Below the pieces are notes generated by a model that saw only the letters and a list, made by a program, of their open reading frames with translations, was not told where the DNA came from and did no database searches. A stretch of 64,000 nucleotides of DNA from contig NC_019680.1 in the NCBI RefSeq assembly GCF_000316685.1, positions 683,501 through 747,500 of the forward strand. Reading direction: 5' to 3'. Position numbers and translations under genes: made by a program. The DNA is from Synechococcus sp. PCC 6312 (GTDB lineage Bacteria; Cyanobacteriota; Cyanobacteriia; Thermosynechococcales; Thermosynechococcaceae). Positions 39,962 through 64,000 of this stretch are shown one piece after another; the stretch's first letter is position 1; each line of letters begins with the position of its first letter.

Positions 39962-40034
39962 AGCATAACGTCATGTGCTTCACCGGACGGCAATGGAGTT
40001 TGCTACCGTTCTGTGTGCAAGCGCTTGTTATGTG
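39962..40034 (-). other. attC-like recombination site B
   Basis: On the minus strand the site begins GCACATAACAAGCGCTTG, passes through a centre that can pair (ACGG-TAGCAA and TTGC-CGT), and ends CGTCCGGTGAAGCAC and GACGTTATGCTG. The ATAAC and GTTAT cores, the CGCTT/AAGC arms and an imperfect fold-back of about 70 bases fit an integron attC. The stop codon TAA of the reverse transcriptase gene lies inside the first core, as is common for integron cassettes. Confidence 0.68.
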
Positions 40035-41569
40035 CTTTTGCTCCACTTTGCCAGTGTTACATCATAAGGCCCCTCAGGTTTGAAACGATTATTTATAAAA
40101 TATTTTTTTTCATCAGTCGGGAATCTAGCGGCACAGTAGAGAAATGCCATTTTTTGCCATGGATCCATACTAATGGATGCTTCCTTGTACTCTCGGAGCC
40201 AATCAACCGCTTCGTTTTGACTAGCCGCCAGCAATATCTCTCTTCGTGCAAATGGATCACTACATTGGAATCTTGATGCTAGAGAAGTAAAGTGATTGAT
40301 ATGTTTGTTTTTTGTAAATAGGCTTAGTATTGAAAGTCGGAAAAACTCATTACTTTCAATTTCTTCTGTATTCAGCAATGCTATAAGCTTGCCTCCCACC
40401 TTTTTCCACTCTTCGGGATCAATCGATTGAATTGAAGCAATATACGTGCATATATTTGCTAGACATGGACCTAACCTCTCCAGATTTTTAATCGATACAT
40501 CTAATGCTCCTGGATGTCCAACCTGTGACAGTCTACGATAGAACCAACGAAGCCGAATATAATCAACTTCGTCTTTAGAAAGATACTCCTTGATTATATT
40601 ACTAACTACACTTTCCGAAAACTGCTTCCAATCCTCTAGGTTTATGGAATTGTAAGATATGCTTGCGTAAGGATTTCCCCCAGTATATCTTTGGATTATT
40701 CCTAACAGTCTTTCTTCATTCTTATTGATTGGACGATCTTCAATCATATTTGCGCATAGTACCTTAAAATCTTCTGGTTTATAGAATCTCGTTTTATGTC
40801 TCTGAAGCATTAATCGCTGCTGTTTGTCTAGAACAGATGCAATTAGTGACAATGCCGATTTAGATTCCTTATCAGAATCACAGAAAACTATGATGTCGTC
40901 AGCGTATCTTAAGAAATTTAGCCCGTTCGTCTTCATGCTGTTGTCAATTGGGATCAGGGTTGCCTCAGCAATTAAATGAATTGCATGTGGTCCAATAGGA
41001 ACACCTCGGGAAACTCCAGCAGTGGTTGACTCAAGTAGCGAAACTATCCATTTCACTGCCTGATTAGGAAAACCTGATTCGATTAATTGATTTTCAACTG
41101 AGTGATGATAAATCTGATTGTAAAAATCGGCTATATCACAGTAAAGAATCGTCGATGAATTCTGGCTTTTATTATAGGCACTGCTCCAAAATTCATTCCA
41201 AGCTGTTTTAGCTTTATATAATCCTTCGTCAATTGATGGAGAGAACCTATAGCTAAAAACCTGTGACGAATCTAGCCTTCTATCCTCAATGCCTTGACCA
41301 AATTGATGTACAAGAGCCGACAAGAGAATTGAGTCTTGTGGATAAAGTTGAGTGGCTTGTCTATATGATATTTCATCTTTTGGAACTATGAATCGCCTAC
41401 AAGGTTTAGGTTCAAATTCAGATAATTGCTTCCCCTCAACTAAGGCAATGAAGTCATCCCGTTTTTCATAAATTGCTACCAACTCCAGTATCTTCGGAAA
41501 CAAGTCTCCGTCAGAGTGTTTTTCTAAAAATTCAATAGCCCACTCAAGGGAGTTTTTTTGCAAAGTCAT
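40028..41569 (-). CDS. Abi/UG-type reverse transcriptase with helical C-terminal region, probable phage defence
   Basis: The 513-residue protein has a reverse transcriptase core. KDEISYRQATQLYPQDSILL precedes motif A (LYCDIADFYNQIYH, Asp 145 and 148). GVSRGVPIGPHAIHLIAEAT is motif B, and FLRYADDIIVF (about 220-230) carries the catalytic YADD. There is no maturase, thumb X or HNH domain and no retron signature. Residues about 290-510 are helical and repeat-like. This suits the unknown-group/Abi RTs used against phages. The gene has a 22-base leader and its stop is inside attC-like site B, so it forms an integron-type cassette. It lacks the CAGGCC core. Confidence 0.82.
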   Translation of the reverse strand: MTLQKNSLEWAIEFLEKHSDGDLFPKILELVAIYEKRDDFIALVEGKQLSEFEPKPCRRFIVPKDEISYRQATQLYPQDSILLSALVHQFGQGIEDRRLDSSQVFSYRFSPSIDEGLYKAKTAWNEFWSSAYNKSQNSSTILYCDIADFYNQIYHHSVENQLIESGFPNQAVKWIVSLLESTTAGVSRGVPIGPHAIHLIAEATLIPIDNSMKTNGLNFLRYADDIIVFCDSDKESKSALSLIASVLDKQQRLMLQRHKTRFYKPEDFKVLCANMIEDRPINKNEERLLGIIQRYTGGNPYASISYNSINLEDWKQFSESVVSNIIKEYLSKDEVDYIRLRWFYRRLSQVGHPGALDVSIKNLERLGPCLANICTYIASIQSIDPEEWKKVGGKLIALLNTEEIESNEFFRLSILSLFTKNKHINHFTSLASRFQCSDPFARREILLAASQNEAVDWLREYKEASISMDPWQKMAFLYCAARFPTDEKKYFINNRFKPEGPYDVTLAKWSKST

Positions 41570-59586: not shown

Positions 59587-60693
59587 TTAGTCCCTAATTA
59601 TATCAGAAAATACTTTTGTTTGCTTCTCTAAAGTATGAGATTGATACCACTCAAAAACTTGATTTGAAATTTTCTGAAGTTCATGCAAATTTTTAAAGTT
59701 ACTAGATGGAGTTAAGTAATGAGTCCCATGCTCAATATTATCTTCAACTTGTTGATGATTTGTTGCTAGTATTGGAACAACACCATGAGAGCAGTATGCT
59801 GCAAACACGGTTGATTTTGCTAAGAAATTACTTGGATAACTTAAAAAAGCAGCGATTGAGTTGGTTAGGTAATTGCATATAGTATTACATTCTTGTTTTC
59901 CAATACACATTACATCAACGGTTATATTATCATAACTAACTCCACTTATTGGTTCGCCAATATCTATAATCTTAGTTATATTGAGATTGTCACAAACAGA
60001 GTTTAATTGATTCACAAAATTTGTGTATATTGAATATTTTTTACTCCTTCCGCCAAATATTATTAAATGTCTGTCCCTTTCAGTAAGGGGTTTATTATGA
60101 GTAGCTTCGCCTACATTTGAAAATACAGGCAGTAACAATGTTTGGAGTTCCCTATTATTTCTTAGTTTGTGGAGTAGTTCTGCATAATAACTCTTACTTG
60201 TTATAGAAGTTTGACTAATAGATAGGATACTCTTACACAGATTTTTTTGAATATTATGTAGCCAAAAGGCGCTACTTTGAATTGAACCTGAAGCATAAAG
60301 CTCATGAAACATGGTAATTAGCTTACCGTTTTCTTGTTTTTTCCATTTTTCCAGGCCACGCACTAACCAAAAAGGACATCCTCGTTTTGCGTATCCATAG
60401 CCCACATAGTGTAAGATAATGACCTCATGACCTTTGATCAGTTCCACTAGAGCATCAGCTTTCCGAGATTGAACGGGTGTTGCTTTGAAGTTTTCGACAT
60501 ATCCAGGTTTGTCAGCGTTTTTCCAGCTTGGATTGCCGACAGCAAATTCCGTGAGGATATTATAATCGTTATACAGCGGTCTAGCAAGATTTAGAGCGTA
60601 ATCACCAAGACCATTAACTGATGGTGGTAAATCAGGAATTATTTGTAATAATCTGACCAAAATAATACCTGGACAAATAAGTAATACTGACAA
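59587..60693 (-). CDS. Putative GT-B glycosyltransferase, divergent
   Basis: The 368-residue product contains LLQIIPDLPPSVNGLGDYAL, ITMFHELYASGSIQSSAFWL, HLIIFGGRSKKYSIYTNFVN and a C-terminal FAAYCSHGVVPILATNHQQV. The last stands where GT-B enzymes bind the donor, but the EX7E glutamates are not obvious. The start is uncertain. TTG 60693 adds 11 residues; TTG 60660 follows CCAGG with better spacing and gives MVRLLQIIPDLPP. Confidence 0.7.
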   Translation of the reverse strand: MSVLLICPGIILVRLLQIIPDLPPSVNGLGDYALNLARPLYNDYNILTEFAVGNPSWKNADKPGYVENFKATPVQSRKADALVELIKGHEVIILHYVGYGYAKRGCPFWLVRGLEKWKKQENGKLITMFHELYASGSIQSSAFWLHNIQKNLCKSILSISQTSITSKSYYAELLHKLRNNRELQTLLLPVFSNVGEATHNKPLTERDRHLIIFGGRSKKYSIYTNFVNQLNSVCDNLNITKIIDIGEPISGVSYDNITVDVMCIGKQECNTICNYLTNSIAAFLSYPSNFLAKSTVFAAYCSHGVVPILATNHQQVEDNIEHGTHYLTPSSNFKNLHELQKISNQVFEWYQSHTLEKQTKVFSDIIRD

Positions 60694-60815: not shown

Positions 60816-61625
60816 TCAATCTGCTAACCAATCTTCTAAAGACATTCTTGGAAAAGTTTCAAGGTATCCACCCTCTGTACAGTTTATAATTCGACCATTA
60901 TTAAATTCATATGCAGCCTTCGCTATTGAGTAACCTAGCTCCATTCCAGCAATATTTGAAACTTGCCACTTGTCACCAGTTTTAGTATAGCTTGGGTCAA
61001 AATGATTAATGTCTTTTTCTGTAGTTATTTCTATCGAGCCAAAGGTTTTTTGAGTTTTATAGCTATGATCACAGCCAATGATTGCAACATCCCTAAAACC
61101 CATATGCAAAGCTAACTGTAACGCAACATAAGTAACTGTTCCGGATGTACCAATGTTCCATGAACAGTCTTGTGCAAATGAAAATGCGTTTAAATATGAT
61201 GAGTACAAATAAATAACATTCTTGGATTGCAGCATGTCCTTGTGAAATTTGTGATGAAGAAATAAAGATATTTCAGTCGTATTAAAAAAGTCTAGATTTT
61301 GACTAAAAGCTATCGGATCAACACAGACAATAGATGATGGACGAAAAGATGATTTATCAAATAAAAGGTTAATCTTGTTTAATCCAAAAGTATATATACC
61401 ATCCAGGTTTGACAAATTACTCTTTAAAAGTGAAGGCCCATTACAAATAATTACAGCTTTTTCATTCGCATACTTATCTTTAAGATTTAATAATCGAGTT
61501 CTAGATACCCAGGAAAGAGGATAAATATCCCAGAACATCCTTCTACTTACTTCTAAGCAACTTCTTAGAAAGATACGATACGGATTAATACTTTTACGTT
61601 GATATGAAAAAGGATTATTAACCAT
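60816..61625 (-). CDS. DUF115/Maf-like (GT42-like) glycosyltransferase candidate
   Basis: The 269-residue protein has KAVIICNGPSLLKSNLSNLD and a Rossmann-like centre with FRPSSIVCVDPIAFSQN. It then reads NIGTSGTVTYVALQLALHMG followed by FRDVAIIGCDHSYK. The NGPSL loop and the GxDHSY-type end are shared by DUF115/MAF proteins and resemble GT42 sialyltransferases. Maf proteins transfer nonulosonic acids from CMP donors. Lying next to a CMP-sugar synthetase and a HAD phosphatase, it is a good candidate to transfer the CMP-activated sugar. Confidence 0.7.
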   Translation of the reverse strand: MVNNPFSYQRKSINPYRIFLRSCLEVSRRMFWDIYPLSWVSRTRLLNLKDKYANEKAVIICNGPSLLKSNLSNLDGIYTFGLNKINLLFDKSSFRPSSIVCVDPIAFSQNLDFFNTTEISLFLHHKFHKDMLQSKNVIYLYSSYLNAFSFAQDCSWNIGTSGTVTYVALQLALHMGFRDVAIIGCDHSYKTQKTFGSIEITTEKDINHFDPSYTKTGDKWQVSNIAGMELGYSIAKAAYEFNNGRIINCTEGGYLETFPRMSLEDWLAD

Positions 61626-61640
61626 CTGTCAACCCATAAT

Positions 61641-62300
61641 CTAGAGTAACGGCAAGAGACTTGAAATACATTTAGCGGATTGAATTTTATGAAAATCAAC
61701 AAAACTTTTCCAATCCTCTAGTTCACTCCACTCCGATAAGAAAATAAAATCGATTTTAGTATTAGCAGTTACTTCGTAATCATACTTACTATCTCCAAAG
61801 AATACGCTTGGGAAAAAGATTTTTTCTGCCCTTAACTCTCGTTCAAGGATTGTTTTTTTGTCATCTGGACTCCCAAATATACCACCATCAAAAAACCGAT
61901 GAATTCCTCTACGCTCGAATACTTCCCGCAGCTCAGTTTGATCACCACCTGATACAACTAGCCATTTAGCATTAGGTAATGCTTTTCGAAACTCACTTAG
62001 ACCTGGGGCCATTTCACAGGAACATAACCCTTCCCGAACATGTGTAGCATATGCTGTCAAAAGCAGACTCAGTTGTTCTTGATCAATAGGAGTTTTAAGA
62101 ATCGACTGAAAAAAATAGTTGAATTTACGATAACGTGAAACTCCTCCATGATTGATGTGGTATGTTTTTAGAGCTTGAGCAGCTTTTTGTCCATAGGGTA
62201 AAGCCGCATGATAAAAACCTTCAGTTTTTAATTTGTTTGAATTCAGTATTACACCGTCACAATCAAAAATAAAGGTCTTATATCTACCTAAGTCAAACAT
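61641..62300 (-). CDS. HAD family phosphatase
   Basis: The 219-residue protein has motif I TFIFDCDGVILNSNKLK (catalytic DxD), motif II WLVVSGGDQTELREV, Lys in DDKKTILERELRAEKIF and motif IV SVFFGDSKYDYEVT. A helical cap lies between. This set fits a phosphoglycolate phosphatase-like HAD acting on a small phosphorylated substrate. Its start overlaps the CMP-sugar synthetase gene by 8 bases, so the two work in one pathway, probably removing phosphate from the ulosonic acid or its precursor. Confidence 0.88.
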   Translation of the reverse strand: MFDLGRYKTFIFDCDGVILNSNKLKTEGFYHAALPYGQKAAQALKTYHINHGGVSRYRKFNYFFQSILKTPIDQEQLSLLLTAYATHVREGLCSCEMAPGLSEFRKALPNAKWLVVSGGDQTELREVFERRGIHRFFDGGIFGSPDDKKTILERELRAEKIFFPSVFFGDSKYDYEVTANTKIDFIFLSEWSELEDWKSFVDFHKIQSAKCISSLLPLL

Positions 62301-62979
62301 ACGCCACCTTTTTGTTCAGAAGAGATTCAGCAATAACAAAATCTTCGTCCCAGTCAATATCAAATCCCTTAATTTTATCTAAAGTATAAAGAAAAGGATT
62401 TTCCCCGATCCTATCATTATAGTTTTTATAAATATGTGCATCACATAAGAAGGCACCACTGTTAACCTCATACAGTGGGTTAATTGTTTGTGTTCTAGGC
62501 CATTTTTCAAAAAACCTATCATAGTTGACTGGGCCATTTTGATTCCATATAAAAGATCGCAGTTCAGTAGTCGTCATCAGTGAATCATAGCCTTCATGAA
62601 GGCATTTGAAGTAGAGATCAATTATTTGTGTATAAGAATTAGAAGTCAAAAATGGAGATGTCACATGTGTCCAGAGAATATGTCCTTGAGTGATAATTTT
62701 AGAAACATAGCGAATTAAGTCATCTGTTTTAGTTTGGCTAGTGCATAAGGAATCATCACGCTTATCGATCACAAGCTTTTCAAGGCTAAGAGTCTTAGCA
62801 AACTCAATAATATTATTATCATTAGTTGATAATATTATTTTCTCAATTAAATTTACATTTGCAAGTTGATTAATTTTAATTTCGATGAGTCCGTGATTGA
62901 AACCAGCAAATGGCTTTATATTTTTATTTTTTATTCGTTCGCTCCCTTGCCGACAGGGTAAAAAGCATGTCACAGTCAT
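62293..62979 (-). CDS. CMP-N-acylneuraminate cytidylyltransferase-like (NeuA family)
   Basis: The 228-residue protein begins MTVTCFLPCRQGSERIKNKN, which is the RxGSxRxxxKN nucleotide-binding motif of NeuA/KdsB enzymes, and ends DIDWDEDFVIAESLL with the conserved metal-binding Asp. It contains HVTSPFLTSNSYTQIIDLYF. It should couple CTP to a 2-keto-3-deoxy sugar acid. No NeuB-type synthase lies in the visible operon. Instead a DmpG-like aldolase gene precedes it by 4 bases. Whether the acid is an 8- or 9-carbon sugar cannot be told. Confidence 0.88.
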   Translation of the reverse strand: MTVTCFLPCRQGSERIKNKNIKPFAGFNHGLIEIKINQLANVNLIEKIILSTNDNNIIEFAKTLSLEKLVIDKRDDSLCTSQTKTDDLIRYVSKIITQGHILWTHVTSPFLTSNSYTQIIDLYFKCLHEGYDSLMTTTELRSFIWNQNGPVNYDRFFEKWPRTQTINPLYEVNSGAFLCDAHIYKNYNDRIGENPFLYTLDKIKGFDIDWDEDFVIAESLLNKKVAYV

Positions 62980-62983
62980 TTTC

Positions 62984-64000
62984 TTAACCTACTTCGTAAA
63001 CACTAGCTCTCTTAATTCTATATTTAGTCGGGGTAATAGCAACGAGAGGTAATGCTCCTAAAGTTGAGTTGTAAAGATTCAACAGGTAATCCATTTCATG
63101 ATTTCGCAAATCATCCGACCCATAACCATCAAAGCCCGCCAATAAGATTCTTTTAGCCCTTCCACTAGTAGCAATTGCCAAGGAGTAGGCAATAACCATC
63201 GAAGTAGGTAATATACAATAGTTGTCTTCAAACTTAAAGGTTTCAGATTGTACTACCAAGCCAAAGTCTAAAAGCTTTTTGCCTTCTAGTTCGTTCCTAA
63301 TATCTTTAGATAACATTGAATATGGAATCACTAGAGGCTGAGGTAAATTTAAGTGTTCTTGACAATCAGCTAATAAGCGAACCGGATGACATGCTGCCCT
63401 TAAATCAATTAAATCTGAGGCAATATGAGTCTGCGTATTTAGAGCAATCACAATGGGATGCTGAGAACTGATATAGTTCTCTAAAGCATGCTGATGAGCT
63501 TCTACTCCGGGACCGGTTCCTAGAATTAGAACATCTCTACCAGTAATCAATGATTTTGGAGACCAAGTTCCGATAGGTTCTCCGGTATAGAAATGTCGTG
63601 CTGAATTAAGAGCATTAAGACTAAACTTCTTCCCACCTGATGATTTTAGATGATCAATTACACCCAGAATATCCTCATCCAGATAGCGATTATCTGCTAG
63701 CATTTCTTGAATATAAGTCGGGTGAATACCATACTTCCCAGCCAAGTAGTAGTATGTGTTTGTTCCCCAACCATACTCATGTTGCAGTGGGCTGAAGTAA
63801 TCTGCAACCAGTCCCATCAAAGGTATGATGTTGCATGGCACGTCAGGGCGAATTTCAGCTAGTTCAATAACAAGATATTCAGTTTTAGCATTGCCGGCTC
63901 CACGTCCCATACCTGTTACAGTTGCATCAATCCAGGTGACACCGTCATTAACTGCTTGCACACAGTTAGATAGTGCTCGCCCCATATTATCGTGGGTATG
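62984..64000 (-). CDS. DmpG-like pyruvate aldolase domain fused to a DUF115-like domain, 5' end outside window
   Basis: The frame runs through the right edge. It starts here within HTHDNMGRALSNCVQAVNDG, the metal-binding HxH of DRE-TIM metalloenzymes, and continues to GMGRGAGNAKTEYLVIELAE. The GMGxGAGNA form matches 4-hydroxy-2-oxovalerate aldolases, whereas isopropylmalate synthases have GxGERAGN. After about residue 150 of the visible part a Rossmann-like domain follows: RDVLILGTGPGVEAHQHALE and AKRILLAGFDGYGSDDLRNH. It resembles the nearby DUF115-like protein. The catalytic N-terminal half of the barrel lies outside the window. The likely reaction is aldol addition of pyruvate to a sugar aldehyde. 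Confidence 0.78.
   Translation of the reverse strand, partial: HTHDNMGRALSNCVQAVNDGVTWIDATVTGMGRGAGNAKTEYLVIELAEIRPDVPCNIIPLMGLVADYFSPLQHEYGWGTNTYYYLAGKYGIHPTYIQEMLADNRYLDEDILGVIDHLKSSGGKKFSLNALNSARHFYTGEPIGTWSPKSLITGRDVLILGTGPGVEAHQHALENYISSQHPIVIALNTQTHIASDLIDLRAACHPVRLLADCQEHLNLPQPLVIPYSMLSKDIRNELEGKKLLDFGLVVQSETFKFEDNYCILPTSMVIAYSLAIATSGRAKRILLAGFDGYGSDDLRNHEMDYLLNLYNSTLGALPLVAITPTKYRIKRASVYEVG

Follow-up and report, generated by a model that had tools for sequence, protein, structure and literature searches.

The genome of Synechococcus sp. PCC 6312 has a compact four-gene module that probably yields, by a route independent of PEP, a CMP-activated 3-deoxy-2-ulosonic acid destined for a surface polysaccharide. 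We hold this reading with good confidence in the absence of any biochemistry; both the product and the catalytic direction are inferred. With less assurance, we favor on balance a broader proposition: that the module represents a widespread, mobile pathway of bacteria and viruses in which a class II pyruvate aldolase leads to a CMP-3-deoxy-ulosonic acid that is neither Kdo nor of the sialic type, the aldolase being joined to a Maf-fold domain in bacteria and to the CMP-activating enzyme in viral contigs. To our knowledge, every textbook route to a CMP-ulosonate (Kdo, Neu, Leg, Pse and Kdn) relies on a PEP-dependent synthase. NeuB and KdsA serve as markers in searches for such sugars. We found no prior description of an aldolase combined with an octulosonate cytidylyltransferase in the open-access literature, subscription papers being outside the search.

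Gene content of the module

The window, the 64,000-nucleotide stretch of DNA that was analyzed, covers positions 683501-747500 of a contig of 3.697 Mb, part of a cyanobacterial genome that is close to complete. Four genes on its minus strand are transcribed in the order aldolase, CMP-transferase, HAD phosphatase and DUF115 protein. They are separated by a 4 bp gap, an 8-bp overlap and a 15 bp gap, which bears out the tight packing described in the initial annotation, and the families named there (a DUF115-like fusion, a CMP-transferase, a HAD protein and a DUF115 protein) match the Pfam assignments. The first gene (62984..64000) encodes the aldolase fused to a domain with a predicted Maf/GT42 fold. 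It is cut by the window end, with the C-terminal 338 of 535 residues inside the window, and runs on to contig position 748091 (full gene at L002:4484-6091, 535 aa). The second gene (62293..62979) encodes a NeuA/PseF-like cytidylyltransferase of 228 aa that matches PF02348 (CTP_transf_3). The third (61641..62300) encodes a HAD-superfamily phosphatase of 219 aa (PF00702/PF13419) with FDCDGV and GDSKYD motifs, and the fourth (60816..61625) a stand-alone DUF115/MptE-like protein of 269 aa, with PF01973 above cut-off.

Several neighboring genes were also recorded. Directly downstream of the DUF115 gene lies a gene for a 368-aa protein (59587-60693, minus strand), possibly a glycosyltransferase, which has no significant match in Pfam or NCBIfam. 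On the opposite flank of the module, still within the polysaccharide region (L002:10518-13784), inspection by eye revealed RfbH, CDP-glucose 4,6-dehydratase and glucose-1-phosphate cytidylyltransferase-like genes, a set as for CDP-3,6-dideoxyhexoses. Outside the polysaccharide genes, a reverse-transcriptase-like protein of 513 aa with a YADD motif is encoded at 40028-41569 (minus strand).

According to the initial annotation, a NeuB or KdsA gene immediately upstream, or a barrel lacking catalytic residues, would refute an aldolase-based route. NeuB and KdsA are absent, both upstream of the module and from the rest of the genome. Searches with PF03102 and PF00793 matched only two DAHP synthases, so a hidden NeuB or KdsA in the operon or genome was rejected, and models for KDO8P synthase and KdsD gave nothing over cut-off in this genome. 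The Gram-positive carrier Rossellomorea aquimaris has one CTP_transf_3 protein and no NeuB, KdsA or KdsD over cut-off. Across carriers, NeuB was absent at E 1e-20 in 20 of the 39 genomes searched. KdsA is present in most Gram-negative carriers, as expected because of LPS.

The aldolase barrel

PF00682 (HMGL-like) matches the first half of the 535-aa protein at 90.6 bits, with the HTHD motif at residues 198-201 and the GMGRGAGNA motif at residues 227-235. The top NCBIfam profile for the barrel is PRK08195, a pyruvate aldolase (114 bits). By sequence, the nearest solved structure is 3dxi (BVU_2661, a putative aldolase; E 7e-49), followed by DmpG/BphI-type 4-hydroxy-2-oxovalerate aldolases. An AlphaFold model of the protein, built from 61 homologues, has a mean pLDDT of 94. 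Its barrel superimposes on 3dxi with a Z-score of 37.2 (rmsd 2.2, 296 residues) and on DmpG (1nvm) with a Z-score of 33.0 (rmsd 2.9, 319 residues).

We then compared residues in 61 full-length homologues with 30-63% identity to the window copy. R10, D11, Y14, R111, H198, H200, N234, W275 and Y281 are invariant in all 61, and H290 is conserved in 60. The metal and pyruvate residues R10, D11, H198 and H200 are thus intact in the complete gene. In alignments to solved aldolases, Y14 falls at DmpG His21 and H290 at DmpG Tyr291. In DmpG, His21 and Tyr291 are catalytic; the roles of R10, D11, H198 and H200 as pyruvate-binding arginine and metal ligands are likewise assigned by analogy with DmpG. Tyr-290 of BphI, the equivalent of DmpG Tyr291, controls C4 stereochemistry (PMC3962088). 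From the alignment, the residue pair acting on the C4 hydroxyl seems to be swapped relative to DmpG, with metal and pyruvate binding kept. This would suit a pyruvate aldolase with another acceptor, an inference rather than a proof.

The protein was initially annotated as a DmpG-type aldolase. The barrel and its metal and pyruvate residues agree with this, but identity with DmpG itself does not hold. The score against the DmpG/BphI equivalog TIGR03217 is 103.4 bits, below its cut-off of 286, and the catalytic pair is swapped, so that we rejected a DmpG orthologue. With tyrosine at the catalytic histidine position, the protein belongs to a sister family of DmpG. Judged by sequence and predicted structure, the N-terminal half is an intact DRE-TIM pyruvate-aldolase barrel; the aldol activity itself is inferred.

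Conserved context across bacteria

To place the module in a wider context, we scanned 84,980 species genomes and found at least 577 relatives of the aldolase, of which the best 80 were retained. These are mostly full-length fusions, and their carriers include Gammaproteobacteria, Alphaproteobacteria, Bacillota, Omnitrophota, Prochlorococcus, SAR11 and others. Since the selection favors close resemblance to the protein of the window, it is not a random sample. The counts below refer, within these best 80 of at least 577, to the 75 loci with a full-length aldolase, the window and two Leisingera plasmids included. A cytidylyltransferase is encoded within 3.5 kb on the same strand in 69 of the 75 loci, and a HAD protein as well in 51. 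The initial annotation had suggested a search of genomes for the four-gene set without NeuB or KdsA: 57 of the 75 loci have the cytidylyltransferase and 44 have both partners with neither synthase within 7 kb, and NeuB lies within that distance in 11. No HAD gene was seen near the aldolase in 24 of the 75 loci, some of them on cut contigs; a general host phosphatase could take its place. In a few SAR11 loci there is no cytidylyltransferase gene close by. Neither a UDP-sugar hydrolase/epimerase nor an aldose-supply gene is conserved with the module. The Leisingera plasmids have the order aldolase-CMP-HAD, and the aldolase-cytidylyltransferase-HAD trio is also present in other cyanobacteria. E. 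coli genomes yielded no relatives.

Other relatives of the barrel, and other aldolases, were seen along the way. Five polysaccharide loci (L016, L022, L023, L056 and L059) have a second aldolase gene near the module, HpcH/HpaI-like by eye. On plasmids of Paraburkholderia (L012:5261-10809) and Mesorhizobium (L015:6125-10224), relatives of the barrel without a fusion partner are encoded next to genes for an SDR oxidoreductase and a HAD protein, with an additional phosphoserine aminotransferase gene in Paraburkholderia, which suggests another small-molecule pathway. More distant barrel relatives (family f44; L172-L176 and L178-L180) occur in many small genomes of a sister lineage in the same phylum; L180 has a KdsB-like gene, the aldolase gene and a HAD gene side by side.

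Two types of activating enzyme

The window cytidylyltransferase scores 43.8 bits against PF02348 (cut-off 22.6) and 62.6 bits against its best named model, PseF (cut-off 205.7). This places it in the superfamily and not in a named equivalog. The operon copy is the sole CTP_transf_3 protein of the genome at E 1e-5. Among the 75 loci from the best 80 of at least 577 relatives, the activating enzyme is closer to a KdsB-type query in 53 and to the NeuA/PseF-type enzyme of the window in 16. All four of the KdsB-type module copies that we checked score above the cut-off of the NCBIfam subfamily PRK13368. Mapped onto an aldolase tree, which was built quickly and includes several long branches, the KdsB and NeuA types switch 12 times, with at least 4 switches forced by starred branches, and the type differs even between closely related Halomonas. 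The use of two enzyme types for one step speaks for CMP activation of an ulosonate as the function that is conserved.

Aldolase-KdsB fusions in viral contigs

In 35 IMG/VR contigs, the barrel and a KdsB-like cytidylyltransferase share a single open reading frame (480-598 aa; the motif check covered 27 distinct fusion sequences). The viral fusions keep the barrel and lack the Maf-like domain. A DUF115 gene lies downstream in the viral loci that we read in detail, and a HAD gene was seen in 1 of the 35 loci. No other finding links aldolase and activation in a single pathway as strongly as this natural fusion. On the virus-like contigs (L007-L010 and L127-L162), which reach 270 kb, the fusion sits among glycosyltransferase genes. 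The INPHARED phage collection gave weak DmpG- or LeuA-like matches and nothing stronger.

The fused domain and the stand-alone DUF115 protein

The fused C-terminal domain matches PF01973 (MptE-like) only weakly, at 19 bits against a cut-off of 34.6. As the barrel dominated the fold list of the whole protein, the domain needed a separate fold search; predicted alone, it has a pLDDT of 96.6. Its structural matches include the Maf glycosyltransferase 5mu5 (Z 14.7, rmsd 3.2, 185 residues), SteA (Z 12.6), the archaeal MptE/HPPK protein 8sd5 (Z 12.5) and the GT42 sialyltransferases CstII and CstI (Z about 11; CstII 11.4). On the basis of this model, the fused domain carries the Maf/GT42 sialyltransferase fold. 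A likeness between the Maf domain and CstII has been described, and Neu5Ac and Kdo can both serve as substrates of a Maf transferase (PMC11339370). By eye, the CstII catalytic histidine has no counterpart in the fused domain, so the stand-alone DUF115 protein may do the transfer. The latter scores 58.2 bits against PF01973 (cut-off 34.6), with weak PseD and WaaZ profile matches. It is a candidate CMP-ulosonate glycosyltransferase, the transfer being inferred. An iterated DUF115 profile also caught the fused aldolases, and low-score matches were left uncounted.

Proposed pathway and alternative explanations

Fold, residues and fusion together suggest how the first step might run. D11, H198 and H200 would bind a divalent metal and R10 would hold the pyruvate enolate, which would add to an aldehyde (probably a phosphorylated aldose of central metabolism) to give a 3-deoxy-2-ulosonate or its phosphate, with the Tyr14/His290 pair standing in for DmpG His21/Tyr291. 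The HAD enzyme is inferred to remove the phosphate; its presence suggests a phosphorylated intermediate and hence an aldose phosphate as acceptor. Formation of the CMP-ulosonate by the NeuA/PseF- or KdsB-type enzyme is a strong inference. It is a weaker one that the DUF115 protein, perhaps along with the fused Maf/GT42-fold domain, would transfer the ulosonate or bind the CMP-sugar. The sequence of these steps is likewise an inference. In Bacillus sp. ISL-41, the genes DUF115-KdsB-KdsA-KdsD-KdsC are directly followed by DUF115-DUF115-aldolase-second KdsB-HAD; profile models confirmed KdsA and KdsD at this place, and KdsC was assigned by eye. With a full Kdo set adjoining the module, the aldolase product there is probably a 3-deoxy-ulosonic acid other than Kdo. 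The occurrence of a complete Kdo gene set with DUF115 genes in a Gram-positive Bacillus (L076:2300-6224) is an observation in its own right. The Klebsiella K38 capsule contains 3-deoxy-pentulosonic acid. The K38 gene list is absent from the main text of a paper on 79 cps loci.

The aldolase-based route put forward in the initial annotation is supported by gene context, the absence of PEP-dependent synthases, the alternation of KdsB and NeuA types and the viral fusions. We count against it the lack of biochemistry, the replacement of the DmpG base histidine by tyrosine, the gaps in HAD occurrence, the NeuB-bearing loci, the SAR11 loci, the extra HpcH/HpaI-like aldolases and the lack of a conserved aldose-supply gene; moreover, DmpG-type aldolases are known chiefly from catabolism. 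Conceivably, the cytidylyltransferase, HAD and DUF115 proteins activate and transfer ordinary Kdo or nonulosonic acid from elsewhere, and the aldolase product is a keto-acid or decoration that has nothing to do with this. Gram-negative carriers do own KdsA for LPS, 11 of the 75 loci (from the best 80 of at least 577) have NeuB nearby, and most copies have KdsB-type enzymes. Such a supply is not apparent, however, in the cyanobacterium and Rossellomorea, the aldolase and KdsB are a single protein in viral contigs, and ISL-41 retains a second cytidylyltransferase beside the aldolase despite its full Kdo set. We regard this explanation as unlikely.

Tyrosine in place of the catalytic histidine, together with the CMP-sugar transferase-like fold of the C-terminal domain, might also mean that the barrel runs in the cleavage direction, or that it is no longer an active aldolase and serves to scaffold the Maf-like domain. 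This is rendered quite improbable by the invariance of all metal and pyruvate residues over 61 distant homologues, by conserved neighbors that serve activation and not degradation, and by viral forms that keep the barrel without the Maf-like domain. A Claisen-type condensing enzyme with an acetyl-CoA donor, akin to isopropylmalate or citramalate synthase, would yield a different branched acid for CMP activation. The barrel is of the HMGL-like superfamily, and homocitrate and isopropylmalate synthases match it at Z 24-27, but pyruvate aldolases rank first in both the profile and the structure comparison (PRK08195; 3dxi and 1nvm, Z 33-37), and KdsB/NeuA-type partners act on 3-deoxy-2-ulosonates. 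We give a Claisen enzyme very little credence, and retain the aldolase route as the preferred reading.

If this reading is true, an aldolase module spread over several phyla and viruses escapes searches that use NeuB and KdsA as markers, uncharacterized surface sugars are indicated, and stereodefined pyruvate aldolases become available for synthesis. Three small soluble proteins would suffice for a direct test of the claim.

Comparison with known systems

The module shares with the Kdo pathway (KdsD-KdsA-KdsC-KdsB) a 3-deoxy-ulosonate, a HAD-type phosphatase and, in most copies, KdsB-type CMP activation. It differs in that the C-C bond would be made by a metal-dependent pyruvate aldolase and not by PEP-dependent KdsA, and in that the HAD protein is of another subfamily. 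With the CMP-nonulosonic acid pathways (NeuB/PseI/LegI, NeuA/PseF/LegF and Maf/GT42) it has in common a NeuA/PseF-type cytidylyltransferase and a DUF115/Maf-type protein, but it lacks NeuB and a conserved UDP-sugar hydrolase/epimerase. The barrel fold, metal site, pyruvate arginine and GMGxGxGN motif are those of the DmpG/BphI 4-hydroxy-2-oxovalerate aldolases; in contrast to these, the module aldolase has no adjacent DmpF dehydrogenase partner, carries an extra C-terminal domain and has Tyr14/His290 for His21/Tyr291. Its closest solved barrel relative, BVU_2661 of Bacteroides vulgatus (PDB 3dxi; 31% identity, Z 37.2), is a structural-genomics entry described as a putative aldolase, of which the N-terminal domain alone was crystallized. 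Finally, the fused C-terminal domain has its predicted fold in common with the Maf flagellin glycosyltransferases and CstII, but it is shorter (200 aa), has no evident equivalent of the CstII His motif, and is joined to an aldolase.
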